Part shown: piece by piece, positions 1,629-37,665 of the stretch
Numbering within the stretch: the first letter of the stretch is position 1
How the letters are laid out: every line of letters starts with the position of its first letter
Origin: a virus
IMG/VR virus record: IMGVR_UViG_3300044446_000014
Location: 1-44,871 of that record
DNA: 44,871 nucleotides
Direction: 5' to 3' (one strand)
Notes under the pieces: generated by a model
Database searches by the model: none
What the model was told of the DNA's origin: nothing
What the model saw: the letters and a program-made list of their open reading frames with translations, nothing else
Position numbers and translations under genes: made by a program

Positions 1629-2135
1629 ATGGCACGAGGTCCGAAGCCGATGCCCGCGGCGCTAGCCAAGCTGCACGGCAATCCCGGCAAGCGCGCCGTC
1701 GTCCTCGATGAGCCCGAAGGTCGTGGCGGTCCGCTGTGGGCAGCACCGCCATGGCTCGACGACGAGCAGCGCGCCCAGTGGGCCTACGCCCTAGAGTGCG
1801 CACCGCTCGGCCTGCTGACGGCGACCGACCGCGAATTGCTGGCGATCTGGGTCGTCGCCTCGGTCGAATACGCCCGCGCCATCTCGGAGGTGCGCAAGCT
1901 CGGACAGGTCGTGCGCTCCAAGGAGGGCGTGGCTTTCCAAAATCCGTTTCTCGGCATCGCCAACCGGCAGGCGTTGATCATGATGCGGGCGGGCAACGAG
2001 ATGGGCTTCAGTCCCGTATCGCGCGCCGCGCTCGGCCGTATCTCGGGAGAAATCCATGGCGCCACGGGCGCACCGGCTGCCAGCTCGCGGCTCGCGCAGT
2101 ACCTCGCGCAAAAACCGGATCGGCTCGACAGCTGA
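1629..2135 (+). CDS. terS: Terminase small subunit (P27 family)
   Basis: A 168-residue DNA-recognition subunit of the packaging motor. The N-terminus MARGPKPMPAALAKLHGNPG is the signature of P27-type small terminases. It is followed by a helical region with WLDDEQRAQWAYAL and a C-terminal stretch FQNPFLGIANRQALIMMRAGNE typical of the family. The ATG directly follows the stop of the glycosyltransferase gene, with GGAGG 8-12 bases upstream. It overlaps terL by 80 bases, as is common for this pair. It should bind near cos and hand the DNA to TerL. Confidence 0.93.
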   Translation: MARGPKPMPAALAKLHGNPGKRAVVLDEPEGRGGPLWAAPPWLDDEQRAQWAYALECAPLGLLTATDRELLAIWVVASVEYARAISEVRKLGQVVRSKEGVAFQNPFLGIANRQALIMMRAGNEMGFSPVSRAALGRISGEIHGATGAPAASSRLAQYLAQKPDRLDS

Positions 2136-4201: not shown

Positions 4202-4234
4202 CAGTCGCGCGACACCCACAAAAGAGCACATCAC

Positions 4235-4405: not shown

Positions 4406-4417
4406 GGAGCCCGAGCC

Positions 4418-5035
4418 ATGGCCAACCGCATGCCGCCCAAGGCGGGCGAAAAGCAAACCCGCGACGTCGACATCACCAAGGCAGGCAACCGCACCATCCG
4501 CTTCGTCGCGAGCGACGAGACCGTGGACCGATACGGCGACATCATCAGGGTCGACGGCTGGCAGCTCGACAACTTCGCCAAGAATGGCCCGCTGCTGTTC
4601 GGCCATGCCAGCCGGGAGCCACCCATCGGCACCGCCAAGGCGTGGGTCGAGGGCAAGCAGCTGCTGGCCGACGCCACGTTCCTGCCTGAGGGCGTCTCTG
4701 ACTTTGCCGATGAGGTGTGGCGCATCACCGATGCTGGTGCCCTCAAGTCGGTGTCGGTCGGCTTCCTGCCTACCAAGGCCCCGAATTACCTCTGGGCCGA
4801 CGACGATCCTGACCACGAGGAGTGGCCAATCGGGTTCGAGTTCGTCGGTCAGGAGCTGCTTGAATTGAGCGTCGTGCCCGTGCCTGCCAACCCGGCTGCA
4901 CTCGCCCTCGCCCGGTCTGTCGCAAGCGAACAGACCACCCGCCGACTGTTCATCCCTGACGCGCGGGCATCTGCCCACGTCGCGGCTGAGACACGGCGTC
5001 GAACCATCAATCTTGCCCGGCTCCGCGCCGGGTAA
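4418..5035 (+). CDS. Prohead maturation protease (HK97 family serine protease)
   Basis: 205 residues. The enzyme cleaves the capsid scaffold (delta) domain inside the prohead. Conserved blocks: NGPLLFGHASREPPIG with catalytic His63, LKSVSVGFLP with the nucleophile Ser (about 113), and QELLELSVVPVPANP near 152-166, all diagnostic of Peptidase_U35/HK97 proteases. The start ATG follows TGAGGAGC. The next gene begins 19 bases downstream. Confidence 0.93.
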   Translation: MANRMPPKAGEKQTRDVDITKAGNRTIRFVASDETVDRYGDIIRVDGWQLDNFAKNGPLLFGHASREPPIGTAKAWVEGKQLLADATFLPEGVSDFADEVWRITDAGALKSVSVGFLPTKAPNYLWADDDPDHEEWPIGFEFVGQELLELSVVPVPANPAALALARSVASEQTTRRLFIPDARASAHVAAETRRRTINLARLRAG

Positions 5036-5054
5036 TTCATGGGGAGACCATCCC

Positions 5055-6452
5055 ATGCGAAAGCACATCGAGGCGCTGCGCAAAAAGCGCAACGCGCATC
5101 TGGACGCCATGACGGCCCTGTCCGAGCTGGCGGCCAACGATAATCGGCTGTTCACCGAGGAGGAGCAGAAGGCGTTCGACAAGGATCAGCAGGAGCTGAC
5201 CGACATCGACGCGCAGATCGTGCGGCTTGAGGCAGTGGAGCGGCAGACCGCGTTGCAGGCCAAGCCTGCACCGAACCCGCTCAACCCGACGCCGAGCGCC
5301 GAGGTCATCCCGTTTAAGGCGTTCAAGGGGCAGGCGTTCACCCGCTTCGTCGGCGCACTGGCCATGGCCAAGGGCAACCTGCAGCAGGCCATCGAGCTGG
5401 CCAAGCGATGGGAACACCAGACGCCGGACGTGCTGACCGTCTTGCGCCATGCCCAGACACTCGGCTCGACCAACGATGCGCGCTGGCTGGAAAAGGCAGC
5501 CGTCGCTGTCGGCAATACCACCGACCCTGCGTGGGCGGCTCCACTGGTGGCCTACACGCGCATGACGGCGGAATTCATCGAGCTGCTGAGGGCCGAGACC
5601 ATCTTCGGCAAGCTGACCGGCTACGTCACGGTGCCGTTCAACGTGAAAATTCCGAGGCAGACTGCAGGAGCCTCGGCGGGTTGGGTCGGTGAAGGGCTGA
5701 GCAAGCCCGTCAGCCGTCTCAGCTTCGATGACGTCACCATCCCGTGGGCCAAGATCGCCGTGATCGTGGTGATCACGCAGGAGCTTGCAAGGTTCAGCAC
5801 ACCCGCCGCCGAGATGCTGGTGCGCAATGACCTGATCGCAACGATTGCCGAATTCATCGACAAGCAGCTGCTCGATGACACCGTGACGGCGATTGCAGGT
5901 GTGCGGCCTGCCTCGATCACCAACGCCGCGCACAAGGTGCCGTCGACCGGCAGCACCGTGGCAGCAGTGACCACCGACCTTGCGGCGGCAATGCTCTACA
6001 TGACCTCGAACAACATCCAGCTGCGCAACCCGGTGTGGCTGATGACACCGTCTGAGGCCATGTTCCTCGCCACGCTCAGGACCGCACAGGACATCTTCGC
6101 CTTTCCCGGCATGGGTGTCGGTCCTGCCACGGCCTCGAACCTCAATCAGGGGCAGACAGGTCAGAGCCTGATGGGCATTCCCGTGATCACCTCGGGCAAC
6201 GTGCCGACTGGCGTCATCGACCTGCTTGAGCAGTCGCAGCTCATGGTGGCCGACGATGGCGAGGTGCTGATCGACACCTCGACCGAGGCCTCGGTGCAGA
6301 TGGACAGCGCACCAGCCACGCCACCGACGCCGCTGGTTTCGTTCTGGCAACAGAACCTGCTGGGCATCAAGGCCGAGCGGTTCATCTACTGGATGATGCG
6401 CCGCGCTGCCGGGATCGTGGAGATCACCGGCTTCCCGGCACCGACGCCTTAA
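5055..6452 (+). CDS. Major capsid protein (HK97 fold)
   Basis: 465 residues. An N-terminal coiled-coil delta/scaffold domain (MRKHIEALRKKRNAHLDAM through about residue 75, with EEEQKAFDKDQQEL) is followed by the mature capsid domain with GWVGEGLSKPVS, VVITQELARFS and the C-terminal WQQNLLGIKAERFIYW. GGGGAGA precedes the ATG at 5055; an upstream in-frame ATG at 5013 would lie inside the protease gene. The substrate of the upstream protease is expected to be the first ~100 residues. A strong terminator follows, consistent with high-level expression. Confidence 0.93.
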   Translation: MRKHIEALRKKRNAHLDAMTALSELAANDNRLFTEEEQKAFDKDQQELTDIDAQIVRLEAVERQTALQAKPAPNPLNPTPSAEVIPFKAFKGQAFTRFVGALAMAKGNLQQAIELAKRWEHQTPDVLTVLRHAQTLGSTNDARWLEKAAVAVGNTTDPAWAAPLVAYTRMTAEFIELLRAETIFGKLTGYVTVPFNVKIPRQTAGASAGWVGEGLSKPVSRLSFDDVTIPWAKIAVIVVITQELARFSTPAAEMLVRNDLIATIAEFIDKQLLDDTVTAIAGVRPASITNAAHKVPSTGSTVAAVTTDLAAAMLYMTSNNIQLRNPVWLMTPSEAMFLATLRTAQDIFAFPGMGVGPATASNLNQGQTGQSLMGIPVITSGNVPTGVIDLLEQSQLMVADDGEVLIDTSTEASVQMDSAPATPPTPLVSFWQQNLLGIKAERFIYWMMRRAAGIVEITGFPAPTP

Positions 6453-6509
6453 GAGGGGCAGCCGGGCGGTCGGCGCTTTCCCATCCCATCAACCGGCCGT
6501 TCGACACTT

Positions 6510-6546
6510 GGGCGAGTGCAGGTCACCTGTGCTCGCCCTCTTTTTT
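6510..6546 (+). terminator. Rho-independent terminator after the capsid gene
   Basis: A 7-bp perfect stem GGGCGAG/CTCGCCC (6510-6516 with 6532-6538), an inner CAGG/CCTG pairing, then TCTTTTTT. It lies between the capsid stop and the ribosome site of the next gene. It probably lowers read-through into the portal gene. Confidence 0.85.
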
Positions 6547-6559
6547 CGGAGGCATCGCC

Positions 6560-6754
6560 ATGGCCAAGCGCAAGGTCGAAGCGAAGGACGAAATCATGGT
6601 CATGGCGACCAAGCGTTTTCGTCATCGCGCCGTCTACGTGAACTTGGGCGAGACACTGCACATGAGCCGCGCCGAGGCCGCCGACATGGTGGCACTGGGC
6701 TTCGTGCATGCGGTCGAGGCCCTGACACCATCGCGCGAGCCGGCCAATGGCTGA
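6560..6754 (+). CDS. Small hypothetical protein between capsid and portal
   Basis: 64 residues, MAKRKVEAKDEIMVMATKRF start, with GGAGG nine bases upstream. It has the look of the short beta-rich accessory proteins often encoded in head modules (VYVNLGETLHMSRAEAADMVALGFV), but I assign no function. It overlaps the portal start by eight bases, suggesting translational coupling. Confidence 0.7.
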   Translation: MAKRKVEAKDEIMVMATKRFRHRAVYVNLGETLHMSRAEAADMVALGFVHAVEALTPSREPANG

Positions 6755-8138
6755 CGACAAGCGCGGCCTGCTGCAGGTGCTGGGCAGTTGGGCCATCGGA
6801 GCCATCGAGCGCGCCACCGGCAGCGTTGCCCCTGCTTGGCACTGGCCGTCGAACCAAGGCATGCCGGGCTGGTGGGGCAATGGAGACCGAGGCCCCGTCG
6901 GCAGCTGGCAGATGAACCGCAACGCGCCGCAGGCTGGGCTTGAGCTGCTGGCGTTCAGCGCCGTGTATGCCTGCATCAATACCATCGCGTCCGACCTGTC
7001 GAAGCTGCCGTTGCAGGTGTTCGAGGTGGACATGGAAAGCGGCGCGCGAAAGCTGCGACGGACCGACTACTACGCCCAGCTGATGCGCGAGCCGAACACC
7101 TATCAGACGGCCAGCGATTTCATGTTCGCCTTCGTGCAGTCCTACCTCCTGCAGGGCAATACCTACTGCTACTGCGGCAAGCGCAACCGGCGCGGCGAGA
7201 TCACCGAGCTGCATGTGCTCAGGCCCTACAACGTGCGGCCGCTGATCCTGCAGGACGGCACGGGGCAGATTTTCTACGAGATCAACGAGGACTGGCTGGC
7301 GGGCATCACGCTGCCTGATCAGCGCATCCCCGAGCGCGACATCATCCACCATCGCCTGCCCCTGCTGCCGGGCTATCCGCTGGTCGGTGTCACGCCGATC
7401 TTCGCTGCCGCTGCCAGCTCGGCGGTGGGCCTGCAGATTTTGCGCGAGAGCCAGCAGTTTTTCGGCAATGCCTCGCGGCCCTCGGGTCTGCTGTCGACCG
7501 AGCAGCACATGAGCGACGACCTCAAGGCCCGCTACAAGCAGGAATGGGACCTCGCCTATCGCGGCGCGGAGTTCGGCAAGACAGCCGTGCTGTCGGGCGG
7601 CATGAAGTGGCAGCCGCTGACCATCACCGCACAGGATGCCCAGCTGATCGAGCAGCTGCGCTATTCGGTCGAGGATGTGGCGCGCGTGTTCCGCGTTCCG
7701 CCGTTCATGCTGGGTGACCTCAGCAAGGTGACATACCGCAACAACGAAACGCTGGTGCGCATCTACATGTCGAACTGCCTCGGCTTCCACATCGAGGCCC
7801 TTGAGCAGCGCCTGTCGCGCGCCTTCGACTTCCCGCAGAATTTTGAAATCCGCTTCGACCTGTCAGGTTTCCTGCGCACCGAGATCGACGTGCGCTTCGA
7901 TGCCTACGCCAAGGGCCTCAACGGTGGCTGGATCAGTGCCAACGAGGTGCGGGCACAGGAGGGCCTTGAACCCGTCGAGGGCGGTGACGAGCCGCGCGTG
8001 CAGATGCAGTACGTGCCCCTCAGTGACGCGACCGGACCACCGCCTGCACCAGCTGCACCACCACCGCCACCTGAGGCCACGATTGATCCGTCGCGCGTGC
8101 GGTCACTGCTGCGCGAGCGGATGCGGAGGGCAGCATGA
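6747..8138 (+). CDS. Portal protein (HK97 family)
   Basis: 463 residues forming the dodecameric DNA gate at the capsid vertex. Family features include the N-terminal helix AVYACINTIASDLSKLPLQVFE, the core LLQGNTYCYCGKRNRRGEITELHVLRP-type region, and VEDVARVFRVPPFMLGDLSKVTYRNNE near residues 310-335. The C-terminus is proline-rich (PAAPPPPPEATI). The gene follows the capsid gene instead of preceding the protease, which departs from the usual terL-portal-protease-capsid order. Confidence 0.93.
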   Translation: MADDKRGLLQVLGSWAIGAIERATGSVAPAWHWPSNQGMPGWWGNGDRGPVGSWQMNRNAPQAGLELLAFSAVYACINTIASDLSKLPLQVFEVDMESGARKLRRTDYYAQLMREPNTYQTASDFMFAFVQSYLLQGNTYCYCGKRNRRGEITELHVLRPYNVRPLILQDGTGQIFYEINEDWLAGITLPDQRIPERDIIHHRLPLLPGYPLVGVTPIFAAAASSAVGLQILRESQQFFGNASRPSGLLSTEQHMSDDLKARYKQEWDLAYRGAEFGKTAVLSGGMKWQPLTITAQDAQLIEQLRYSVEDVARVFRVPPFMLGDLSKVTYRNNETLVRIYMSNCLGFHIEALEQRLSRAFDFPQNFEIRFDLSGFLRTEIDVRFDAYAKGLNGGWISANEVRAQEGLEPVEGGDEPRVQMQYVPLSDATGPPPAPAAPPPPPEATIDPSRVRSLLRERMRRAA

Positions 8139-8338
8139 AACTTCGCATCCACCTCACGCGCGATGCGCGCGGCAGCACTGTCACCGATACCGAGACCGGG
8201 CATGAGTTCGAGCGCCTGACTGCCATCGAGGTGCGCGCCGCCATGGGCGAACCGACGACAGTGGTGCTGACCATGCTGGCCGAGGTGGAGATCGAGGCCG
8301 ACGCCGATGTGCAGCCGAAAGTCGGAGGCGCGACATGA
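8135..8338 (+). CDS. Small hypothetical protein in the head module
   Basis: 67 residues, MKLRIHLTRDARGSTVTDTE. It overlaps both neighbours by four bases (ATGA), so it is part of a coupled string. Acidic C-terminal half; no recognised domain. Confidence 0.7.
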   Translation: MKLRIHLTRDARGSTVTDTETGHEFERLTAIEVRAAMGEPTTVVLTMLAEVEIEADADVQPKVGGAT

Positions 8339-8964
8339 TGAATTCCGAGGAGCTGAACGCCTTTCTCGCTGACCTGCTGGGCGAACACCTCGAAAAATTC
8401 CGCGCCGAGATCGCGAGCATGGTGGCAGCCATTGCCCTGCCGCCGTTCCTGCCGCCGCCCGTGTGGACCGAGGGCCGCCATGCTGCTGGTGTCACCGTGC
8501 GCCACCGCAACGGCCTGTTCACCGCGCGCCGCGACACGTCAGATGAGCCGCCGACCGAGGCATGGTTGCCGGTGCTGGTGGGCATCGCGACCGTCGGTGT
8601 GGAGTGGCCCAACGACCGCCGCATGGTCATGCGCATCGAGCTGAGCGACGGCACGATGGTGGAGACCGAGCGCGATTTTCTGGTGCCCATCGCGCGTGGT
8701 TTCTGGAAGGCCGAGGAAACCTACAACGAGGGCGACCGCGTGCTGCGCTTCGGTGACTGGCAGGCGGCCAAGCCCTCGACCGGCATCGATCCCAACGGCG
8801 CGGCCAACGAGGGCCACTGGCTCAAGGTGACCGGCAAGCAGCACCGCGAGGTGTCGTTCAAGCTGGATGATGACGGGCGCATGTTCGAGAACGGCCACCA
8901 GATCGGCAGCATCAAGCCCATGGTGGCCCAGCTGCTCGGCAGCCTGATAGGCGCGGCTCGATGA
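8335..8964 (+). CDS. Hypothetical virion protein with two carbohydrate-binding-like modules
   Basis: 209 residues. An N-terminal helix is followed by a proline-rich linker (LPPFLPPPVW). Then come two segments resembling small ChtBD3/carbohydrate-binding-like modules: GVTVRHRNGLFTARRDTSDEP (about 56-76), and EETYNEGDRVLRFGDWQAAK (about 124-143) ending in GHWLKVTG. Similar modules recur in structural proteins of alphaproteobacterial phages. Its place between portal and connector suggests a capsid decoration or head-associated protein, but this is inference. Confidence 0.65.
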   Translation: MMNSEELNAFLADLLGEHLEKFRAEIASMVAAIALPPFLPPPVWTEGRHAAGVTVRHRNGLFTARRDTSDEPPTEAWLPVLVGIATVGVEWPNDRRMVMRIELSDGTMVETERDFLVPIARGFWKAEETYNEGDRVLRFGDWQAAKPSTGIDPNGAANEGHWLKVTGKQHREVSFKLDDDGRMFENGHQIGSIKPMVAQLLGSLIGAAR

Positions 8965-9689
8965 GCGCGCCCGCCGCGCTGCTCGACAACATCAAGGATG
9001 ATCTCGGCATCACCGACACCGCCAGTGATGCGTGGTTGCAGCGCCGCCTCGACGGCATCTGGTCACGCATCGAGCACTACACCTCGCGCGTGCTGGCCAG
9101 CCCGCCTGCGGCCTTCATCGATGACTGGTCACGCATGGTGATCAACGACCCGCAGCAGCCCTTGCCGCCGCCGCTCTACTTCGCGCCGCGCGCCACGGTG
9201 TTCCTGCGCTACTTCCCCGTAGCCTCCATCGAGGCGGTCGAGCTGGATGGACAAACAGGCGTGCCAGGCGATGTGAGGTTCGATCCGCGCACCGGCAAGC
9301 TGTTCAACCTCGACGGCAGCAGCTTCGCGCAAGACTTGTCATCGCGGCTGTTCATGGCGCAGACCCGCATCACCTACAAGGCCGGGTGGGATGAGGTGCC
9401 GGGCGATCTCTACGAGATCGTGCTGGGCGCAATGCAAACCCTGTGGGAAGGCAGGGGCGGCTCTGCTGGTGGTGGAGGCCTCACGGGCACCGTCTCCGAA
9501 ATCAGCGTCATCGACGTGGGCTCGGTGCAGATGAGTGCGGGCAATGCCTTCGTCAACGCCACCATGAAAGGCGTGGGCACGACGGATCCTCTGCTCGGCC
9601 CGTACCTCAACATGCTCGACCTCTACGTCGACCATCGCAGCCTGATCGGGCACGCGCTGCTGCCTGTCACTGAGCCCGTCCCGCCGTGA
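8961..9689 (+). CDS. Head-tail connector (gp6-like adaptor)
   Basis: 242 residues. The N-terminal helical bundle starting LLDNIKDDLGITDTASDAWLQRRLDGIW, the central APRATVFLRYFPVASIEAVELDG strand pattern and the ITYKAGWDEVPGDLYEIVLGAMQTLWE helix are characteristic of gp6/gp15-type connector proteins that sit beneath the portal. It overlaps both neighbours by four bases. Confidence 0.82.
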   Translation: MSAPAALLDNIKDDLGITDTASDAWLQRRLDGIWSRIEHYTSRVLASPPAAFIDDWSRMVINDPQQPLPPPLYFAPRATVFLRYFPVASIEAVELDGQTGVPGDVRFDPRTGKLFNLDGSSFAQDLSSRLFMAQTRITYKAGWDEVPGDLYEIVLGAMQTLWEGRGGSAGGGGLTGTVSEISVIDVGSVQMSAGNAFVNATMKGVGTTDPLLGPYLNMLDLYVDHRSLIGHALLPVTEPVPP

Positions 9690-10033
9690 GCCAGCTTGTC
9701 GAGACCGGCCGACCGAAATGGCGATGGCTGTTCCGGCGGACGGCAAATCCTGTCTCGTATCTGCCTGCAGGCGGCGCATCGGCGGTGCCGGTGCTCGCCT
9801 TCATTCGCGGCGTGCGCTCCGATGACCTGTTCGCCGCAGCGATGCAGCAGGACGTGGCAGGCGTGCTGGATGCCATCGACTTCGCGGCGGCCTTCCCTGT
9901 CAGGCCAAGGCCGACACGCTACGACCGGCTGCGCACCGCGACCACGAGCTATTCGGTGGAGGAGTGGCGCGGCTCGCCCAACGACGACGCCCCGGTGTTT
10001 TTCAAGCTGCTGCTGCGCGGGGGCCAGCAATGA
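9686..10033 (+). CDS. Probable head closure / head-tail joining protein
   Basis: 115 residues with a GTG start that overlaps the previous stop (GTGA). The position after the gp6-like connector and before the terminator-like gene is where the head-closure protein is normally encoded. Sequence features (TSYSVEEWRGSPNDDAPVFFKLLLRGGQQ) are compatible, but the family is not clear by eye. Confidence 0.6.
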   Translation: MSQLVETGRPKWRWLFRRTANPVSYLPAGGASAVPVLAFIRGVRSDDLFAAAMQQDVAGVLDAIDFAAAFPVRPRPTRYDRLRTATTSYSVEEWRGSPNDDAPVFFKLLLRGGQQ

Positions 10034-10506
10034 CGCCGCTCGAAATTTTCCTGCAGGTCTGGCAGCAGAAAATTCCGGTGGCGGTGGTGGAGTATGTCGA
10101 GGCCGTCAACAGCGGCGTCGACACCGATGGGCTGGCCGATGTGTGGGGCGCTGTCATCCAGCAGTCGAACACGCGCACCGACGTGACACTCGGCAGCAAG
10201 CCATGGGTCGAGGAGACGGGGCAATTTCTCATCGGCCTGTTCACCCGCTCAGGCCGAGGGCCTGCAGCTCTGGATCAGGCCATCGACTACGTGCGCACGA
10301 CCTTCCACGGCATGGCCTACGGCGGGCTGATCATCCAGCAGGTTGACGGGCCGCACGATGTCGACCCCGAGGGCGTGGGCGAGTGGTGGCAGATGGCGAT
10401 GACGGCTGAGTACAAATTCCAGACCCGGCGCGATGCCACGGGGCCACTGTACGGCGACTGGGAAAATTTCCCGACGACGCCGCCGCCACCGCTGGCGGGC
10501 CCCTGA
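10030..10506 (+). CDS. Probable tail terminator / tail completion protein
   Basis: 158 residues, MTPLEIFLQVWQQKIPVAV start, overlapping the previous stop as ATGA. The alpha/beta pattern, and a C-terminal WWQMAMTAEYKFQTRR strand like those of gpU-type terminators, support the call. An upstream in-frame ATG at 9964 only reads the previous gene out of frame. Confidence 0.6.
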   Translation: MTPLEIFLQVWQQKIPVAVVEYVEAVNSGVDTDGLADVWGAVIQQSNTRTDVTLGSKPWVEETGQFLIGLFTRSGRGPAALDQAIDYVRTTFHGMAYGGLIIQQVDGPHDVDPEGVGEWWQMAMTAEYKFQTRRDATGPLYGDWENFPTTPPPPLAGP

Positions 10507-10507
10507 G

Positions 10508-11080
10508 ATGGCCACCGACCGCATCGAGGTGAAAGGCCTCGATCAGGCCCTCACCAACATAAAATCGCTGGCCGGGGATGTGCAAACCAAGATCACGCGC
10601 GATGCGTTGCGGACTGCTCTGTGGGTGATCGCGCGGCGCATGAGGGCTGGCACCTATTCCACGTTCATTCGCAGGTCAGGAGCCATTCAGCGCGGCTTCG
10701 GCGTGGCCGTGCAGCGCGATCCCAAAAATGACGAGCTGAAGGGCTACGTCACCCAGTATCCGCAGAACCTTCGCCGTCTCGGCAAGCCTGGCCTGCAGAT
10801 CGCCCATTGGTGGCGCTACCTCGAATTCGGCACGGGCGAGCGTCGTGCCTCCCGCACTCCCAACTTTTTGCGCACGGGCAGTTTCAGCAAGAGCAGCCGC
10901 GTCGTGGTCAGGCAGGCCACCGCGCTGTCGCGTTGGGCCGCTGCTGGCAATCGCGGCTCGGTCAAAGAACGCAAGTGGGTGCGCCCTGCTGCAGCTGCCA
11001 CCACGCCCGAGAGCATCGAGACGTTCCGGCGTGAGGTGCTCGAGGAAATCGAAAAGGCCGTGACCAATTACCCGAAGTGA
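10508..11080 (+). CDS. HK97 gp10-like neck / minor tail protein
   Basis: 190 residues. IEVKGLDQALTNIKSLAGDVQTKITRDALRTALWVIARRMRA is the typical N-terminal helix of the HK97-gp10 family. It is followed by a beta region with WWRYLEFGTGERRASRTPNFLR, in which the (Y/L)EFGT motif is the family hallmark. Located just before the tail tube gene, as in other HK97-like phages. Confidence 0.85.
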   Translation: MATDRIEVKGLDQALTNIKSLAGDVQTKITRDALRTALWVIARRMRAGTYSTFIRRSGAIQRGFGVAVQRDPKNDELKGYVTQYPQNLRRLGKPGLQIAHWWRYLEFGTGERRASRTPNFLRTGSFSKSSRVVVRQATALSRWAAAGNRGSVKERKWVRPAAAATTPESIETFRREVLEEIEKAVTNYPK

Positions 11081-11092
11081 GAGGAGCCCGCC

Positions 11093-11857
11093 ATGTCTGG
11101 TCGTATCTCGTCGCAAGGTTCTGTGATCATGATTTCGGATGACCTCGATGCGGTCACCGCCGACATCGCCAGCGCCACCAAGGCCAAGCCCTGCGTGATC
11201 ACGCTCGACGTTGGCGCGACTGCGCCAGTGGTGGGCGAGATCGTGGTGCCGCGCGGCATGGGCTGGAATTCACTCGACGGCATGCCGTTCAAGGTGAGTG
11301 CCGTCACAGGTCAGGCAGTGACGCTGGAGGATAGCGACACCACCCGCGAGACTGCCACGCTACCTGTTGCACCTGCCGACTTGGCCACACTCAGCACGCC
11401 GACGTGGCTTGAGCTGTGCCGGTCCAATTTCAACGCCAACAATCCTGCGGGCGCGACGCTCGATGTGACCACGCTGTGCGACACCGCGCATCGCATCGTG
11501 GCGGGCCTGCCTGCCATCGGCACATGGACCGCTGCGGGCTTCTACGACTGCAGCGATACCGCCATGTTCCGCGCCCGCGATGCCTACCGCTCGGGCGAGG
11601 ATGTGGCCATCGACGTGCGCGTGCGCGACGGCTGCGGCTGGACCTTCATGGCGATCGTCAACACGTTCGACCTGACACTGGGTGTCAACGCTCCGGTGGC
11701 GAACAACATCGGCGGCCAGATCGACGGCATGATCCACTTCTACAAGACGCCGCCTGTCGGCTTCGTGCCGCTCGAAACCATGGTGCGGGGCATCAAGCCC
11801 GCGACCAACGTAGGGGCGCAGCCCTCAGGCCCTGCCCCTGAGCTGGTGCCCGCATGA
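11093..11857 (+). CDS. Major tail (tube) protein
   Basis: 254 residues. Beta-rich sequence with a central WLELCRSNFNANNPAGATLDVTTLCDTAHRI block, DVAIDVRVRDGCGWTFMAIVNTF and a C-terminal GFVPLETMVRG, as in siphovirus tail tube proteins. An AGAGGAG ribosome site precedes the ATG. It is followed immediately by the tail chaperone genes, which supports the assignment. Confidence 0.85.
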   Translation: MSGRISSQGSVIMISDDLDAVTADIASATKAKPCVITLDVGATAPVVGEIVVPRGMGWNSLDGMPFKVSAVTGQAVTLEDSDTTRETATLPVAPADLATLSTPTWLELCRSNFNANNPAGATLDVTTLCDTAHRIVAGLPAIGTWTAAGFYDCSDTAMFRARDAYRSGEDVAIDVRVRDGCGWTFMAIVNTFDLTLGVNAPVANNIGGQIDGMIHFYKTPPVGFVPLETMVRGIKPATNVGAQPSGPAPELVPA

Positions 11858-12186
11858 GTTTTGACCGCAAGCAGTGGAATGACCGGCCCGTCATCTTCGG
11901 TGAATTCAACATCAAGCAGGGCCGTGCTGCTCGGCAGGCCTTCCGCGAGGATGGCGAGGCGGGCCTGTATGTCTGCCTCGTGCTGTCGCTGCGCTATGCC
12001 GACGACAACGAGCTGGTGTTCCAGTCGGTCGATGAGGTGGAGGCCCAGCCGATGCGCCTGCAGCAGCGCATCATCTACCTCGCGGGCGAAGCGGCACGGC
12101 TCAACGGCATGCTGGGCGATGATCCTGACGAGCCACCAGCTCAGGCCAATGGCCACGCAGCCGAGCCGCCCGGCCCTTCCCACTAA
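11854..12186 (+). CDS. Tail assembly chaperone (gpG-like)
   Basis: 110 residues, overlapping the tube gene by four bases. Position and size match lambda gpG, the chaperone that coats the tape measure before tube polymerisation. Its C-terminal tail is Pro/Ala-rich. No clear -1 slippery heptamer (X XXY YYZ) is visible near the stop, so whether it is extended into the next frame is unresolved. Confidence 0.7.
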   Translation: MSFDRKQWNDRPVIFGEFNIKQGRAARQAFREDGEAGLYVCLVLSLRYADDNELVFQSVDEVEAQPMRLQQRIIYLAGEAARLNGMLGDDPDEPPAQANGHAAEPPGPSH

Positions 12187-12197
12187 AGCCGGAGCGG

Positions 12198-12506
12198 GTG
12201 TTCCTGCATCGCCTCGCTCTGGCGCTCCACCGCCCTGTCGGTGAAATCGAAACCTCGATGAGCAATCGCGAGCTGATGGACTGGCAACGGTTCGAGGAGC
12301 TGCACGAGCCGCTGCCTGATCGGCTGACTGATCAACATGGCGGCCTGCTGTGCTCGCTCATCGTCAACCTCGTTCGCTCTGCCGAGGCCACGCCGATGCG
12401 GCCTGCCGATTTCTATTTCATCCGTGACCACCAGCCCGCGCCGCCTGCCGAGGATGGCATGAGCGAGGTCGACCGGCAGATGATGAACTGGCGGGGAGGT
12501 TCCTGA
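12198..12506 (+). CDS. Tail assembly chaperone (gpT-like, DUF4035-like)
   Basis: 102 residues from a GTG with GGAG four bases upstream. FLHRLALALHRPVGEIETSM followed by SNRELMDWQRFEELHEPLPD matches the DUF4035-type T segment of tail chaperones. The frame stays open for a short way upstream (LKPERV), so either independent initiation at the GTG or a frameshift from the G gene is possible. Confidence 0.72.
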   Translation: MFLHRLALALHRPVGEIETSMSNRELMDWQRFEELHEPLPDRLTDQHGGLLCSLIVNLVRSAEATPMRPADFYFIRDHQPAPPAEDGMSEVDRQMMNWRGGS

Positions 12507-14497
12507 TGGCCGAGATCGGTGACGTCCTCATCAAATTCGTCGCGAACTTTGCCGAGTTCACGAAGAACATGGAGGACGGTCAGCAGCAGCTGGTGAAATT
12601 CGGTGAGCAGGCTGCATCGACGGGCAGCAAGCTGGAAGGCTTCATCGGCCTCGCGAAAAATCTGCTCGGTGGACTGGCCATCGGCGCGGTGGTGCAGCAG
12701 ATCACCGCCTATGCCGACAAGGTGCAACAGTCGGCCGTCAAGACTGCCGATCTCGCGAGGGCGGTCAACCTCACGACGAGCGAGGTGCAGGGCCTGCAGG
12801 CACTCGCGGACAAGACTGGCGACAGCTTTTCCGAGCTGGCGAAAAAGGGAATAGCGAACCGCGACTGGCTGGCACAGGTGACCGCCGACGCCGAGCGTGC
12901 TGGTCAGGTGATGGACAGCAGCGTCGTGCAGACGCTCAAGCGAATTCAGGTGGAGAGCGACGAGGCCGCGCGCCGACTGCAGGTGTTTTTCTCCCCGGCA
13001 ATCGCGGCCACGAAATCGTGGCTGGCAGACCAGTTCGAGCGCATCGCCAACGATCTCAAAACCATCGGTGCGCAACAGGGCATAATCGACAAGATCATCG
13101 CGCTGGCTCAGATGCTGGGCTACGGCAGCGGCGCGGGCGCGAGCGGCCAGTTCAGGATCGACAGCCTGACTGATCAGGTCACACGGCGCGAGCAGGCACT
13201 GGCCGACCTTGAGAGGCGAGCAGCACAGGGACCGAGCCCGCGTGAAATCGGCCTCGGTGTTCAGGGCGTCTCACCTGCTCAGGTTGCCGAGGCGAGAAAG
13301 GACCTTGACGACGCGCGGGTGCTCCTCGGGCAGGCCAAGGATGCGGCAGCGCGAGCAGCCTACGGCACCACCACGCTCGACCCGAAATCGCTGCCTGATC
13401 CTGCCAAGACGACGACGGGAGGCGGTGGCAAGACCGACGCGGACAACATCGAGGCACAGATCAGGCGCTACGATGCGCTCGGCCGAAACGCCAAGGAAGC
13501 CTACGATAAGATCACCGGCAGTCATGCCGAGTTCGTTGACGATCTTCGTCGAGAGATCACCGTCCAGCAGCAGGTTGCCGATATCGTCGAGAAGCTGCGG
13601 GCGAAAAACCAGAATGTGAGCGACGAGCAGATCAAGCGACTGACCGCCGTTGTCGAACTCAATCAGCAGCAGCGCGACCAGAACGCACAGCTTTTTCAGG
13701 ACGCGCAGCGCGCCGAGCAAATAGAACTGAAGCTTGGTGACGGTACCCGTGCGCGTGAGAAGGCCGAGCGCGATCTCGCCCGCGCACAGGCGGCAAGCCG
13801 AGGCACGTTGTCGCCTGAAGCGAGGGCGCGGCAGCAAAAGCAGGAGGGCGAACAGATCGATGCTGCTGCCAATTCGGCCGCTCGATATGACGACAACCTC
13901 GGCTCGCTGGCAGCTGGTTTTGCCAATGCAGGGAACGCCTCAGCGCGTGCGCATGACCTGTTCTCGACGGGCAGTCAGGTATTCGAAGGCCTAATGGGTT
14001 CGATGGGTGAGGCCATCGACGCTCTCGTGGGCGTGAGCAACAAGGGCTTCGGAGAGATCGCGCGCGACTTCGCCCTGATGTTGTCCAAGATGGCGGCACA
14101 GGCCGCGCTTTCGCAAATTTTTAAGTATGTGATCGACCTCGCGAAAATAGGTGCAAGCGCGGCGAGTGCGAGTGGAGCGAGCGCAGGTTTCACCACTGGC
14201 GACGCTGTCGTGAACCTGATCCCGCCCGGCCGAGCCGCTGGTGGTCCTGTCAGTCCGGGCAGCCCCTACATCGTGGGCGAGCGCGGGCCTGAATTTTTCG
14301 TGCCCCATGCTGCAGGCAGCATCGTGCCGATGGGCCAGATGGGTGGCGGCGGTGTCACCGTCAACGTCGACATGGGGCAAACCGTCGGCGCATCCAATCC
14401 ATCGCAGGCGCTCGACTTCGGCCGCAAAGTGCGCGCTGCCGTGGTGGCTGTGATCCAGAACGAGAAACGCCCCGGCGGCACTTTACAGAACGCGTGA
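12506..14497 (+). CDS. Tape measure protein
   Basis: 663 residues setting tail length; roughly 100 nm of tail would be expected at 1.5 angstrom per residue. It has an N-terminal helical start (IGDVLIKFVANFAEFTKNMEDGQ-type), long Gln/Ala-rich coiled-coil stretches (about 220-430), a hydrophobic segment (LSQIFKYVIDLAKIGAS) near residue 530, and the C-terminal signature SPYIVGERGPEFFVP near 590 shared by many tape measures. Located between the chaperones and the lambda M homologue. Confidence 0.92.
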   Translation: MAEIGDVLIKFVANFAEFTKNMEDGQQQLVKFGEQAASTGSKLEGFIGLAKNLLGGLAIGAVVQQITAYADKVQQSAVKTADLARAVNLTTSEVQGLQALADKTGDSFSELAKKGIANRDWLAQVTADAERAGQVMDSSVVQTLKRIQVESDEAARRLQVFFSPAIAATKSWLADQFERIANDLKTIGAQQGIIDKIIALAQMLGYGSGAGASGQFRIDSLTDQVTRREQALADLERRAAQGPSPREIGLGVQGVSPAQVAEARKDLDDARVLLGQAKDAAARAAYGTTTLDPKSLPDPAKTTTGGGGKTDADNIEAQIRRYDALGRNAKEAYDKITGSHAEFVDDLRREITVQQQVADIVEKLRAKNQNVSDEQIKRLTAVVELNQQQRDQNAQLFQDAQRAEQIELKLGDGTRAREKAERDLARAQAASRGTLSPEARARQQKQEGEQIDAAANSAARYDDNLGSLAAGFANAGNASARAHDLFSTGSQVFEGLMGSMGEAIDALVGVSNKGFGEIARDFALMLSKMAAQAALSQIFKYVIDLAKIGASAASASGASAGFTTGDAVVNLIPPGRAAGGPVSPGSPYIVGERGPEFFVPHAAGSIVPMGQMGGGGVTVNVDMGQTVGASNPSQALDFGRKVRAAVVAVIQNEKRPGGTLQNA

Positions 14498-14504
14498 GGC
14501 CCAC

Positions 14505-14882
14505 ATGCCGCACTCCTCTCCGTACTGGCCATGGTGTGTCATGCCGGGAGCCTCGCGCTCGACCAAGCTGCGCGTCGACCAGACCGACTACGGCGACGGC
14601 TACACCTACCGGCTGACGCGCGGTCTCAATCCGGCAAGGCCGAGCTGGTCAATACAGGTGCCGTTTGTCGGGCTGACTGAGCTGGGCACCTACGATGCAT
14701 TCCTCGTGGCGAATGCAGCGCGCGGTTTCTGGTTTACGCCACCTGATGCCACTGCCGACGTGTTCGTCACTGCCGATGAGTGGTCAGCTTCGATCACCGA
14801 CCGCAACCAGACCGATGTGGTGGGCACGCTGCAGGCGACCTTCACCCGCCAGTTCAATCCGCAGCCCCTCAATCCAACATGA
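14505..14882 (+). CDS. Minor tail protein M (lambda gpM-like)
   Basis: 125 residues. WPWCVMPGASRSTKLRVDQTDYGDGYTYR-type N-terminus and GFWFTPPDATADVFVT match Phage_min_tail (gpM). It acts in tail-tip assembly with L, K, I and J, which follow in canonical order. Confidence 0.88.
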   Translation: MPHSSPYWPWCVMPGASRSTKLRVDQTDYGDGYTYRLTRGLNPARPSWSIQVPFVGLTELGTYDAFLVANAARGFWFTPPDATADVFVTADEWSASITDRNQTDVVGTLQATFTRQFNPQPLNPT

Positions 14883-15568
14883 GCCAGCTCGTCACCGAAG
14901 GACTGGTCACGCTCTACCAGCTCGACACCACGCGCGCGGGCGGCCCGGTGTTCTACTTCACGAGCGCGACAGACTTCGATCACGAAATCTACTGGGGCGG
15001 CCAGCTCTATTCGCCCGTACCGATGACGGCTGCCGGGTTTGAAATGACCACCAAGGGCTCGCCGCCGACGCCCGGTGTCACGATCAGCAACCTCTACGGC
15101 GCGGGCAACCTGCTGCTCGACAGCTATCTCGGGCTGATCGGCTCGGACTTCATTCGCATCCTGACCTTGCGCCGGTTCCTCGATGACGGCGCGACGCCTG
15201 ATCCGAATGCCATGATCACGCGCGAGAAATTCGTGGTGGCACAGAAGACGGCGCACAACGCCAAGGAAATTGTTTTCAAGCTGGCCACGCGCATGGATCA
15301 GGAGGGCACCAAGCTGCCGCGCCGCCAATATCTCCGCGACGTGTGCAACCATACCTATCGCTTCTGGGACGATAGCATCGGCGCGTTCAACTACAGCAAG
15401 GCGACCTGCCCCTACACCGGCGGCAATTTCTTCGACACCAATGACAACTATGTGGGCCTCAACATGCGGCTCGACATGTGCTCGCGCACGATGCGCGGCT
15501 GCACGCTGCGCTTCGGTGGTGGGCCATTGCCTGCGCGATTTTTCCCCGGCGTCGGAAAGGTCAAATGA
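14879..15568 (+). CDS. Minor tail protein L (lambda gpL-like, Fe-S type)
   Basis: 229 residues from the ATG overlapping the M stop; a longer in-frame start at 14780 would run through gene M. Cys156, Cys177, Cys201 and Cys208 are spaced like the four cysteines that bind an iron-sulfur cluster in lambda gpL. The core YLRDVCNHTYRFWDDSIGAFN is diagnostic. Confidence 0.9.
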   Translation: MSQLVTEGLVTLYQLDTTRAGGPVFYFTSATDFDHEIYWGGQLYSPVPMTAAGFEMTTKGSPPTPGVTISNLYGAGNLLLDSYLGLIGSDFIRILTLRRFLDDGATPDPNAMITREKFVVAQKTAHNAKEIVFKLATRMDQEGTKLPRRQYLRDVCNHTYRFWDDSIGAFNYSKATCPYTGGNFFDTNDNYVGLNMRLDMCSRTMRGCTLRFGGGPLPARFFPGVGKVK

Positions 15569-20895: not shown

Positions 20896-21867
20896 ATGAG
20901 CCAGTTCGATTTCGGCACAATCGATCCGTATGTCGTCGACGGCGTGCAGCTCGCGGACATGCTGAACAACTGGCGCAACGCGGTCCACTCGTGGCATCGC
21001 GGCGGCGTGCGCCCGCCCTACGTCGTGCCCGGCATGATGTGGATCAACGACAGCGGCGGCGCGACGAACTGGGTGGTCAACGTCTACATGTCGCCTACCG
21101 TCGGCGACGTGGCGATGTTCACCTACAATACCAGCACAGGCGGGGTCACGCTGAACGCGGCGGCAGGCGGCACGCTGGCGGCGGCGATCCTGCTGGCCCA
21201 GGCGGCGGCGAGCCCGAGCGTCCGCTGGAGCGCGACCGGCAATCCCATCGACCAGAAAAACTGGCGCGCCACTGTCATGCCAAACGGCGCGTTGAGGTTC
21301 AGCCAGTACAACGATGCCGGGGCCGAGGTCGCGTGGACCGAATTGCCCGCAGGCGGCGCGGGCGCGCAGCCGCTCGTAAAACTGTTCAGCGAAGTCGTCT
21401 CGACTGCGGGCGCTAATGTGTTGCGCGTGCCCATCCCCGCCGCGCAGAAGAAAATCGAGCTTCAGTTCCAAATCGGTTTGCAGGCCGCATTTCCGGCGGC
21501 CGATCAGCCGGTCGTGGTCCAAATGGTGCAAGGCACCACGGTCGTCGGCGGTTCGACCTACGGCACCACGTCAGGCGTGTCGACCGGCGCGGCGATGATC
21601 CCGGGCCAAGCATTGAACCAAGCCTACTGGAACCTCGGAGCGTGCAATAATTGCATTGGGAAAGCGGACCTCTACATCAACCCGCCAGCGGGCTCCATCT
21701 ACATGACCGCGCAATATTGGATGTTTCCTCAGTCGGGCAGCCGTCTCGCGTTGTTCGCTTCGTGCGATGTTAGTTTGTCGGCCTCAATCCCCAACGCCGT
21801 GCAGCTCGTCATGGGCGGATCGCAGGCGTTGGTGGCAAACTCGTTCCTGCGATGCTTCGCTGGCTGA
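20896..21867 (+). CDS. Tail fibre / receptor-binding protein candidate
   Basis: 323 residues. The N-terminal TIDPYVVDGVQLADMLNNWRNAVHSWHRGGVRPPYVVPGMMWINDSGG pattern is common in distal tail proteins that attach to the tail tip. A Gly/Ala/Ser-rich beta-structured C-terminal half with FSEVVSTAGANVLRVPIP follows. Its position downstream of J and the sequence character point to host recognition. It converges with the dioxygenase gene, one base separating the stops. Confidence 0.72.
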   Translation: MSQFDFGTIDPYVVDGVQLADMLNNWRNAVHSWHRGGVRPPYVVPGMMWINDSGGATNWVVNVYMSPTVGDVAMFTYNTSTGGVTLNAAAGGTLAAAILLAQAAASPSVRWSATGNPIDQKNWRATVMPNGALRFSQYNDAGAEVAWTELPAGGAGAQPLVKLFSEVVSTAGANVLRVPIPAAQKKIELQFQIGLQAAFPAADQPVVVQMVQGTTVVGGSTYGTTSGVSTGAAMIPGQALNQAYWNLGACNNCIGKADLYINPPAGSIYMTAQYWMFPQSGSRLALFASCDVSLSASIPNAVQLVMGGSQALVANSFLRCFAG

Positions 21868-33809: not shown

Positions 33810-34586
33810 TCATGTGGGTGTCTCGTCGTTGTAGAATTCGCAGCCGGGCGGCGGCGTGCCTGTGCCCTTCACCGACTTGGCGTGGTCGCTGGCCACCTTA
33901 GCGATGGCCTTTAGCGCCGCCTCGCGGATGGCTGGGTGCTTGGCATAGTGCTTGAGCGCCAGCTGCGGATCCGTGACGCGGGCTTTCCAGTTCGAGCGCA
34001 GCGACATCGCGCGCTTGGCGTAGTCGCCTTTCACCTGTGGCCTATCGGGCACAGCGTTGGCCTGCTTAACGCTGGCATTGGCCGAGCGCATGGCCTGATC
34101 CGCCTGCTGCTGTTGCTCCACCGTGGCCCCTGTCTGATCGGCCTCACGCCGCAGCCGCTCGGCGTGGGCAATGGCATCGGCGGCGGCCTTGGCCTTGGCT
34201 GCCCTCTCATCGGCCAGCCGGTGGCGCTCGCGCTGCAGCCAGTCCGACATCTTGCTCAGCATCGCCCGGAGGCCGATGTCGACGCGCTCGACATGAGGAG
34301 TAAAGCGGGCGCGGATCAGAAATATCGCGGCCTCGTAGGGCTTACGGTCAGCCTTGGCGGTGGTGTCGAGATCGAGCGCTGTCACCCGCAGCTGATCAAT
34401 CAGGAGCTGAGCCGCAGCAGCCTGCTCGCTGTCGGCAATCTGCGGCCGCTCAGCCAGCCAGCGATTAACGGTGGCCGTCAGCTGGTCACTGCGGGCCAGT
34501 GCCGCGATGGCCTCGGGAGAGGCCTCGGCGGGCGGCATGTTGTGGCCGATGGGAGGCAGGCCCAGTTCATCGAAGCCGTCTGTCAT
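33810..34586 (-). CDS. Coiled-coil early phage protein
   Basis: 258 residues, start MTDGFDELGLPPIGHNMPPA behind GCAGGAGAGGAAACC. A long charged coiled coil (about 60-170; WLQRERHRLADERAAKAKAAADAIAHAERLRREAD) and a conserved C-terminal module (YAKRAMSLRSNWKARVTDPQLALKHYAKHP, ending PPPGCEFYND). This architecture belongs to a common phage family encoded near recombination genes. It is compatible with a Gam-like or nuclease-accessory role, not demonstrated. Confidence 0.78.
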   Translation of the reverse strand: MTDGFDELGLPPIGHNMPPAEASPEAIAALARSDQLTATVNRWLAERPQIADSEQAAAAQLLIDQLRVTALDLDTTAKADRKPYEAAIFLIRARFTPHVERVDIGLRAMLSKMSDWLQRERHRLADERAAKAKAAADAIAHAERLRREADQTGATVEQQQQADQAMRSANASVKQANAVPDRPQVKGDYAKRAMSLRSNWKARVTDPQLALKHYAKHPAIREAALKAIAKVASDHAKSVKGTGTPPPGCEFYNDETPT

Positions 34587-34750
34587 GGTTTCCTCTCCTG
34601 CAGCCACCGCCGCAGCTTGTCGCGCTCGGCAGGATCATCGATGTCGCGCAGCCATGTGCACTCGATGCAGAGGTCGTCATCGTTGGCGGCTGCGACGTAG
34701 CAATAGACGCGCGTGCCACAGTCCCGGCAGGTGAATTGCCGCGGCCTCAT
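34583..34750 (-). CDS. Small zinc-ribbon protein
   Basis: 55 residues. CRDCG (8-12) and LCIEC (27-31) form a likely four-cysteine zinc site. ATGA overlaps with both neighbours. Confidence 0.72.
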   Translation of the reverse strand: MRPRQFTCRDCGTRVYCYVAAANDDDLCIECTWLRDIDDPAERDKLRRWLQERKP

Positions 34751-34980: not shown

Positions 34981-35197
34981 TCTTGCCTCCGATCTTTTTC
35001 AATTCCTTCCAACCTGCCTCGGTCAGCGACACGCGGTCGTGGTCAGGGATGCGGCCAGACTTCACGCGGCGCACCAGCCCGGCAGCAGCCAGCCGGTCGA
35101 AGGATGGACCGGCACATGCGCCGTATTCGCAGTCATCCTCTTTGCCGAGCCAGCGCAGCAGGTGCACGTCAGTCGGTTTCCATGGCGGCTTCGTCAT
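34973..35197 (-). CDS. Small winged-helix-like protein
   Basis: 74 residues. DVHLLRWLGKEDDCEYG then FDRLAAAGLVRRVKSGRIPDHDRVSLTEAGWKELKKIG reads as a helix-turn-helix with a wing. The ATG at 35197 (AGGAG upstream) is preferred over a start at 35260 that lies inside the repeat array. First gene after the ~1 kb array. Confidence 0.72.
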   Translation of the reverse strand: MTKPPWKPTDVHLLRWLGKEDDCEYGACAGPSFDRLAAAGLVRRVKSGRIPDHDRVSLTEAGWKELKKIGGKNG

Positions 35198-35209
35198 CCT
35201 GCTGCGCTC

Positions 35210-36236
35210 CTCGTTGCCTGCCGTGCCGCTTCCTGCGGCACCGAGCCTAGTCGTGCACACCTGCCCCTGCCGAGCCGGGCCTGCCTTGCCTGTGCCTTGC
35301 CGAGCTGAGCCTAGTCCTGTCGTTCGCGACCAAACCCCGCCGAGCCAAGGCCTTCCCCGCCTGCCTTGCCTTGCATCGCCAACCCAAGGCCAGCGACGCC
35401 TCTGCTTGCCTGCCCAGTCAAACCACGCCTCGCCATTGCTCCACTTGCCAGTGCGGGCAGTGACGTGCCTGCCTTGTCGCGCCAGTCCGAGCCCTTCCGG
35501 GCGCTAGTACGCCCCGTCGTATCTCACCCGGCCGCGCCGTCGTCATGCCGCGCCTCGCCTGCCGTGCTCCGTCCCGCCGATGTCCGGCTGTGCCGCACCT
35601 CGCCAGTCCGTGCCAGCCACCGCCGTGCCCTTCCATGCCTGCCGTGCCCTTGGCAGGCCAATGCAGGTCGCGCCGAACCGAATTGGGCTCTGCCATGTCA
35701 TGCCCAGCCGTGCCTGCCTTGCCTTGCCAGTGGCCGCCAAGCCAAGCGATGCAGAGCACCGCCTTGCCCAGCCCGTCGTGCCTGCCTCGCCGTGCCTCGC
35801 CGTGCCCAGCCCGGACTGCCCGACCCATGCCCTCGCCCTCCGCGCCTGACCGCGCCAGAACTTGGCCCGCCCTGCCGTGCCTGCCGTGCCTTGCCTTTGC
35901 TGGCCATGTCTCAGCTCGCCAACGCTGGCAACGCCCGGCCTTGTCAGTCCGTGCCTGCCTGCCGCTGCTTGCCGCGCCTCCCCGACCAAGCCCATGCCGT
36001 GCCCTTCCGCGATCCACCACGCACGCCTGCCTTGCCTTCGTCATGTCAGGCCAGTCGTTCCCCCGCCTGATCAAGGCTGCCCATGCCTGCCGTGTCATGC
36101 GCCGCCCGGCCTTGCCAAACCCGGCGAGACCAGACCTCGCACTGCCATGGCTGGCCTGCCGTGCCCTACCAACGCCGTGCGCTGGCCCCGCGCTGGCCGG
36201 TGATGCCGGGCCGAGCATTGCCCTGCCTGCCATTGC
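35210..36236 (-). repeat. ~1 kb degenerate GGCNN pentanucleotide array
   Basis: Almost the whole stretch reads NNGCC on the plus strand (for example ctGCC gtGCC ttGCC), that is GGCNN on the transcribed strand, with a period of five bases. At full occupancy it holds about 200 units, with frequent single-base slips. No credible gene is present: frames open on both strands exist only because the unit rarely forms a stop, and they translate to Pro/Ala/Leu/Cys or Gly/Arg/Ala/His low-complexity sequence. It starts right at the stop of the 36237 gene and ends about 15 bases before the start of the 35197 gene. Confidence 0.88.
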
Positions 36237-36767
36237 CTATGCCCTCGCTTCCGGCCGAGGAGGCCGACGACGCGGCGGCTTGCGCGTCGCTCGGTCCTTG
36301 GCTGCTGCTCGCCGCTCGGCCTTCGACTTGAGGGCCAGCACATCATCGAGCAGTTCTTCGAGCTTGGCGGTGAGGCCGAGCACTGCAGCAACATCGTGCG
36401 CACGCTTGAGCGCGGCGGCGACACGATCCAGCTCATCGAGCAACACGCGCTCGGCAATCTCCCGGTCGCGAGCTGCACGGGTCAGGGCCACGTATCGCTT
36501 CGACCGCGAAGGTCGGTCAGGATCGACCACGTAGTAGGGCGCGACGATGCGCTCACTCTCGATGGTCACCTCTAGCCGAACGAAGCGGATCAAGGTGCGC
36601 GCGGTGTCGAGCCAGTGTTCCTGTGCCGCCGCCGACACGTCCCATTCAAACTCGTGATGAATGGGGCTTTTTGGATCGCGTGCCGCCTCGACCACGGCAG
36701 TGGGCTCGATGTGGCCATCGCGCGTGCCCAACGACCGAATGTAGCTGGCCTTTTCTTTCGAGATCAT
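36237..36767 (-). CDS. Conserved phage early protein
   Basis: 176 residues. IEPTAVVEAARDPKSPIHHEFEWDVSAAAQEHWLDTARTLIRFVRLEVTIE (about 20-70), YYVVDPDRPSRSKRYVAL and ERVLLDELDRVAAALKRAHDVAAVLGL are typical of a small-protein family common in siphovirus recombination/early modules. The C-terminus is very basic (RRAAAKDRATRKPPRRRPPR), suggesting nucleic acid contact. Function unknown. ATGA-coupled to the upstream gene. Confidence 0.75.
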   Translation of the reverse strand: MISKEKASYIRSLGTRDGHIEPTAVVEAARDPKSPIHHEFEWDVSAAAQEHWLDTARTLIRFVRLEVTIESERIVAPYYVVDPDRPSRSKRYVALTRAARDREIAERVLLDELDRVAAALKRAHDVAAVLGLTAKLEELLDDVLALKSKAERRAAAKDRATRKPPRRRPPRPEARA

Positions 36768-37633
36768 GTGCGGGCCTCAGGGGCATGGCCGTTGCGCTTG
36801 CTGACTGTGCCAGCTGCTCGGCGGCGGCGACCGCGCGGCTCGTCAGCAACCAGCCCTTGCGGTGTCCGGTCATGCTCGCGGCGCACGATCTCTCCGTGAT
36901 ACCAGCTCAGCATTTCCTCGGTGTCGGCATCGACTGCCTCAGGCTTGGCCATCGCCGCCTCCTGCACCTTGCGATGCCCGCTGCGCGCGATCTCATGCCA
37001 TTCCTTGTCATCCTTGCTGACCAGCTTCCACGAGCCGTTGTTGAATGTGCCCTTCTCGGTGCGCCCGTCACCGATGCCGACGATGTCGCCCGCCGCGTCG
37101 AGCAGATTGATCACGTCCTGCTCGCGGATTTTGTTGCTGATCATCTGCACGGTGATCTTGCAACACCACCGGGGGAATTTGGCGCGCGTGCGGATGTCAG
37201 GCACTTTGCTGAACCCGGCCAGTCGCACCACGTCCATGTAGAGAAACGGCTTGCCGAACAGGTGCACCGTCTCGTCGAGAATTTTGATCAGCCTGCCGAC
37301 CTCGGCCTTGGTCGCGCCTTCCATGTCAATGGCGGCCTGCGCCATGGCCTTCTTGATGGCGTTGCTCGGAATGTGGATCAGCGTCGGCGCGCTGTGGTCT
37401 CGGCAGCGATAAACGCTGTCGCGGTATTCGTCGGGCGGATTGTGCTTGAGAGTGGCAGCGCGCGCCGCCTTGTTCATCGCGCGCCTCGGCATCAGCAACT
37501 CCTCCTTGGCCTTCTTCGGCATGCGGTTCATCACCAGCGGCGAGGTGCCGAGGATGTAGAACGTGGTCGAGCGCCGTTCGAGGCGTTGGATCGATACGTA
37601 GGTTTCCTCTTTCGTCAGTTTCTTGGCAGCCAT
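36764..37633 (-). CDS. Conserved phage protein, family with GIGDGR C-terminal motif
   Basis: 289 residues. YILGTSPLVMNRMPKKAKEEL near the N-terminus, PSNAIKKAMAQAAIDM in the middle, and KITVQMISNKIREQDVINLLDAAGDIVGIGDGRTEKG near 190-230 match a widespread phage early family of unknown role. The C-terminal ~55 residues are basic. GGAGACTAAC precedes the ATG at 37633; an ATG four codons earlier has no site. Probably the partner of the 36237 gene. Confidence 0.74.
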   Translation of the reverse strand: MAAKKLTKEETYVSIQRLERRSTTFYILGTSPLVMNRMPKKAKEELLMPRRAMNKAARAATLKHNPPDEYRDSVYRCRDHSAPTLIHIPSNAIKKAMAQAAIDMEGATKAEVGRLIKILDETVHLFGKPFLYMDVVRLAGFSKVPDIRTRAKFPRWCCKITVQMISNKIREQDVINLLDAAGDIVGIGDGRTEKGTFNNGSWKLVSKDDKEWHEIARSGHRKVQEAAMAKPEAVDADTEEMLSWYHGEIVRREHDRTPQGLVADEPRGRRRRAAGTVSKRNGHAPEART

Positions 37634-37665
37634 GTTAGTCTCCATTGTTGCTTAGGTTGAACGCG

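Follow-up and report, generated by a model that had tools for sequence, protein, structure and literature searches.

The 44,871-nucleotide (nt) virus record IMGVR_UViG_3300044446_000014 of IMG/VR, called the window here in its full length, carries on its minus strand a gene for a RAMP protein, an accessory gene and an array of GGYNN pentamers. Together these very probably form a phage-borne VIPR locus with ~14 guides, at least two of them aimed at the terminase small subunit gene (terS) of close relatives, the likely adversaries being sister phages. VIPR systems, described only in 2026 and with experiments on a few systems, consist of a small RAMP protein, Vipr, and RNAs that alternate GGY and NN; the NN bases pair with DNA and one target base is skipped at each step (PMC13142463, a preprint). 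The predicted assignment of this locus to VIPR rests on protein family, modelled fold, gene order, repeat chemistry and code. Its features are listed in minus-strand order.

36764..37645, minus strand: vipr, encoding a RAMP protein of 293 amino acids with a conserved G-loop; overlaps the accessory gene at ATGA
36237..36767, minus strand: accessory gene (vap candidate), 176 amino acids; adjoins vipr in Mycobacterium and Gordonia phages too
35217..36237, minus strand: predicted vrRNA (guide) array, ~14 units of GGYNN pentamers, 5n+4 nt each, from 44 to 99 nt

The array and its genes

The five-base period reported in the initial annotation is real: at 35210-36236 the lag-5 identity is 0.456, compared with 0.308±0.014 (maximum 0.352) in 1000 dinucleotide-preserving shuffles, and the 21 highest-scoring 300-nt windows of the entire record are all located at the array. 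A phase-aware scan with a score threshold of 25 places a GGCNN array at 35217-36237 on the minus strand with a score of 214.7, shuffled loci reaching 13.4 at most, and no other array within the window exceeds the threshold. As a positive control, the scanner recovered three of the four guides of Escherichia phage SUSP1, at lower score. The 5' end of the array is the stop codon of the accessory gene, so it does meet a gene boundary as first noted. Its NN positions are hypervariable, which accounts for Tandem Repeats Finder reporting no tandem repeat in the window. Over 6561 pentamers from all arrays, base use is 94% G, 78% G and 93% C/T, followed by two almost free bases.

The ~1-kb GGCNN array originally described is thus confirmed, although its phase is not continuous and many of its pentamers are imperfect (see below). 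Slips of 4 nt part the pentamer runs, and the window units end in such a slip, GGCA. The junction consensus RGCAMGGCA/GGC (the slash marking the junction) has nine exact copies in the window array, whereas order-4 Markov sequences have a mean of 2.0 and a maximum of 8. Among all arrays, the gap following a pentamer run is most commonly 4 nt (293 cases), with units clustering at lengths of 44, 49, 54, 59, 64, 69, 74 and 79 nt, equal to 5n+4. A typical unit has 8–14 pentamers, in agreement with VIPR guides of 9–16 GGY/NN repeats each; those of SUSP1 have 9–16 pentamers plus a tail (PMC13142463). L063 carries a 2.5-kb array (4586-7129; 413 pentamers parsed) in which many units open with GTC rather than GGC, a possible start mark.

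By sequence profile and modelled fold, the product of 36764-37645 is Vipr, the RAMP protein of VIPR systems. It has no significant Pfam family and matches one PHROG, of unknown function. A profile of five related proteins gave a single significant match in the PDB, to SUSP1 Vipr (36pp, E=1.7e-6), and picked out vipr within the genome of SUSP1 (E=1.2e-8); a second profile of Vipr relatives matched 36pp at E=1.8e-5, and profile-profile comparison with SUSP1 Vipr gave 95% probability across the G-loop region. The loop is conserved in the window's Vipr family as GxGD-R-P-x-KG. The AlphaFold model has a predicted local distance difference test (pLDDT) score of 75 and a predicted template modelling score of 0.70, and its PDB fold matches at E≤1e-3 are exclusively CRISPR RAMPs (best 7.7e-5). 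Profile matches, fold matches and loop all point to the RAMP homologue with RRM core and G-loop that is expected of a VIPR system. The accessory protein was modelled with a pLDDT of 91; its best fold match (E=0.13) is a winged-helix protein, a weak likeness.

Array and genes are linked across many phages. A Vipr profile retrieved 80 related vipr loci from IMG/VR, and a same-strand GGYNN array lies close to vipr in 74 of these; the contigs of the remaining six end soon past the gene. Loci of the window's clade mostly run vipr, accessory gene, array, with the array starting no more than ~20 nt from the accessory stop codon, and the order vipr-accessory-guides is shared with SUSP1. Relatives of both genes sit side by side in Mycobacterium (Cheoctovirus) and Gordonia phages, and a blastn search with the window array retrieves Cheoctovirus arrays. 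Over ~2 Mb of contigs from these phages almost every array is at vipr, the exception being a 108-kb contig with several more. This contig (G015; L115, L118, L119, L037) holds at least seven dispersed GGYNN arrays, some distant from vipr. Short GGYNN arrays with a score of 40 were also seen in more distant TerL relatives (L217 15348-15424, L223 7808-7884, minus strand).

Predicted targets of the guides

We decoded 13 window units by letting the NN bases pair and skipping one target base per step. Close relatives, or sister phages, are those with TerL 73–79% identical to that of the window phage; among named phages the closest TerL is 43% identical, and megablast of window positions 1-15000 gave no match. 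The units and the gene concerned are as follows.

35293..35361, minus strand: guide unit u12, 13 pentamers plus GGCA; predicted to decode to the terS 3' end of sister phages
35470..35538, minus strand: guide unit u9, 13 pentamers plus GGCA; predicted to decode to a second terS site
35882..35955, minus strand: guide unit u5, 14 pentamers plus GGCA; tentative, with a lesser match in the 5' portion of gene 20896-21867 and of its L230 homologue
1629..2135, plus strand: terS of the window phage itself, homologous to the predicted target, with imperfect sites at 1988-2026 (u9, 19/26) and 2090-2128 (u12, 17/26)

At a skip of one, nine NN of u12 agree with three relatives in 17/18 bases, a score reached by 8 of 2000 shuffled arrays; skips of 0, 2, 3 and 4 give at most 15/18 in sister phages. 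The matched region lies at the 3' end of terS (a terminase small subunit by PHROG), where the base skipped falls on the third codon position. When the u12 pattern, in a 17-base form, was run against the whole of IMG/VR, four contigs came back: three are relatives matched at the same terS site and the fourth is matched in a tail-type gene, apparently by chance. Two of the relatives were known before the pattern was written, so the new relative, L227, is the independent part of this result.

The best site of u12 is this 3' place in 10/10 terS genes examined, and u9 fits best at a second place (gene position 392-398) in 8/9 (L204 scores only 14/26 there). When eight terS genes are aligned by codon, the scores are 0.723 for u12 and 0.639 for u9, both higher than in 1000/1000 shuffles, while the other eleven units score 0.43–0.56; skip lengths other than one raise neither. 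The one-base skip, mostly at the wobble base, that marks VIPR is thus matched at the sequence level by u9 and u12 on terS. For u12 the window's own terS matches less well (17/26) than that of relatives (up to 21/26), although for u9 own and relatives' scores are equal (19/26). The weaker own match of u12 makes self-avoidance plausible, the guides perhaps sparing their own terS. The vipr gene was not found in 15 sister-phage records, mostly fragments.

With at least two guides predicted to target relatives' terS, the locus most likely blocks DNA packaging of sister phages. The vipr-vap-array operon would be read on the minus strand and, by analogy with other VIPRs, the array RNA would be cut into, or used as, ~14 guides (PMC13142463). 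Copies of Vipr would cover each guide at a 5-nt spacing, with GGY held and NN left exposed. These NN bases would pair with DNA, passing over a single target base at every step, which here is the wobble base of the codon. The complex would then silence the bound gene, as in other VIPRs (PMC13142463), and terS silencing would stop sister phages from packaging DNA in a shared host, to the presumed competitive benefit of the window phage.

Other units and arrays gave leads and rejected candidates. An exact scan of IMG/VR with u2 found no match, and the single exact match of u5, in a phage of 40% GC, fails to extend and is attributed to chance. Unit u8a matches a tail-terminator gene in the window at 17/26, but the match is absent at the homologous place in relatives and was dropped. 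No resemblance of guides to their own contig was found over 51 loci. Within the window, sites of at least 15/18 with automatically set units were equalled in 165/1000 shuffles, which is not significant, and hand-set units gave three sites, all at wobble, with 0/60 shuffles as good; neither result was used as support. NN composition fits codon positions 1-2 best, weak support at most since base composition confounds it.

Some VIPR systems are reported to aim at vipr genes of other phages (PMC13142463). A guide of L066 (4618-4690) fits the region of the vipr gene in L083 at 25/28; the L066 array also appears aimed at vipr of L034, L035, L049 and L075, and a guide of L078 (4617) matches vipr of L066. 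Under a one-base skip, guides of L071 (5857) and L055 (5880) match window 317-349 (plus strand), within a ParB-like gene at 2-817, with the first ten NN of the L071 guide perfect. From these matches the window phage or a relative may itself be targeted by other arrays. As the pooled excess given below is small, the vipr and ParB-like matches are leads and not proof. The ParB-like gene also resembles DNA methyltransferase fusions, and beside it 666-1628 (plus strand) matches a PHROG annotated as DNA-hydroxymethylcytosine glucosyltransferase (2.3e-42), suggesting possible DNA modification.

Points against a guide array, and alternatives

Several results weigh against a VIPR guide array. A convincing target was obtained for only two of the 13 units, and none is perfect for u12 or u9, the best relatives scoring 21/26 and 19/26. 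In a pooled test of skip rules over 1226 guides, the excess at a skip of one is small. Two mycobacteriophage guides had no mycobacteriophage target in the IMG/VR scan; their two matches there lie in contigs of 37–49% GC and are regarded as chance. The array matches no known RNA family in Rfam. A 3' tail like that of SUSP1 guides is not seen in the window array, which shows just the 4-nt separator and a short junction consensus; other VIPR types differ in architecture (PMC13142463). A vap gene, six kinds of which have been named, is expected beside vipr and a conserved neighbour does lie there, though without homology to the SUSP1 accessory protein by profile. Finally, GGY is perfect in only 54% of window pentamers, with per-position conservation of 83, 77 and 82%.

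This last value bears on the closest alternative, that the locus is VIPR with a decayed array, either non-functional or with a few units still functional. The arrays of L007, L029 and Cheoctovirus are 92–98% perfect, and eleven of the 13 units lack a convincing target. However, values of 49–58% are common in the window's own clade (L008, L010, L013, L017, L026), vipr and vap are both intact, terS information persists in the NN order of u9 and u12, and targetless units are expected if the target phages are unsequenced. We regard decay as improbable.

Much less probable still is a structural or recombinogenic DNA or RNA element unrelated to guides, such as an R-loop former, a recombinase landing pad or a transcript spacer. 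The sense strand is G-rich (plus-strand GC skew of -0.207 at 35001-36000) and an exonuclease-like gene lies nearby at 33810-34607, but the arrays occur beside vipr and vap in phages with differing neighbour genes, without a tie to recombination genes, and NN order fits terS in codon phase far above shuffles. Nothing points to the landing pad for recombination proteins that had been suggested, and the regulatory transcript spacer finds no support either, the evidence favouring guides.

We give hardly any credence to a translated low-complexity protein. Open reading frames run through the array on both strands, for example one of 271 codons at 35418-36233 (minus strand), and a similar one is annotated in Gordonia phage Pipp. 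However, only TAG can stop a GGCNN tract, so that open frames are to be expected whichever strand is read, the 5n+4 unit length shifts the frame between units, and NN is hypervariable. These frames are accidents, and the array is, as initially held, non-coding, on the sense strand of the operon, bounded by genes and apparently functional. Pipp gene 43 (L004 4569-4838), called a hypothetical protein, is a reading frame within a guide array, and annotated genes overlie arrays in Florinda, Donkeykong and BobaPhett too; annotators should note that such arrays get miscalled as protein genes. A functionless microsatellite-like tract grown by replication slippage, a process also proposed at first, would suit the strict 5-nt period but should leave similar neighbouring copies, of which none were detected, and the same architecture recurs at 74 of 80 divergent vipr loci; we discount it just as fully.

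Relationship to known systems

Class 1 CRISPR-Cas effectors share the predicted fold of the window Vipr. Their Csm3/Cas7-type RAMPs oligomerise along the guide RNA, leaving positions periodically unpaired. The window has periodic pentamers instead of a repeat-spacer array, and its guide is non-contiguous; no cas family, including cas1 and cas2, turned up in Pfam and PHROG scans of window proteins, which covered part of the small reading frames.

The closest characterized relative is the SUSP1 VIPR (vipr ALH47069, PDB 36pp), which has the same RAMP family, the same gene order and same-strand GGY/NN guides, and whose one-base-skip code fits the predicted window targets. SUSP1 has four separate tailed guides of ~100 nt, whereas the window has ~14 head-to-tail units in 1 kb with 4-nt separators; SUSP1 Vipr has 195 amino acids and the window Vipr 293, with a C-terminal extension; and the accessory proteins are unrelated. 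Guides of the SUSP1 clade are mostly directed against a satellite phage (PMC13142463), whereas the window's two predicted targets are sister-phage terS. The preprint claims seven VIPR types, some with 'staggered' arrays (PMC13142463). The window could represent a distinct type, with a continuous array whose guide ends are marked by a 4-nt phase slip and not by a tail, carriage by temperate phages, and guides directed against the late packaging genes of sister phages and not against regulators or satellites, although we lean against this. Independently of the preprint's data, the locus brings support from unrelated phages for the VIPR protein family, the chemistry of the array and the reading code. 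It packs ~14 predicted guides into 1 kb, and its predicted sister-phage targets make a phage-against-phage role directly testable.

Mycobacterium phages (Cheoctovirus, e.g. Quico) and Gordonia phages (ODay, Pipp) have homologous vipr and accessory genes and GGYNN arrays, unannotated as VIPR. They differ from the window in arrangement, in that Cheoctovirus has its array upstream of vipr, and ODay and Pipp have theirs between both genes, whereas the window array is downstream of both.
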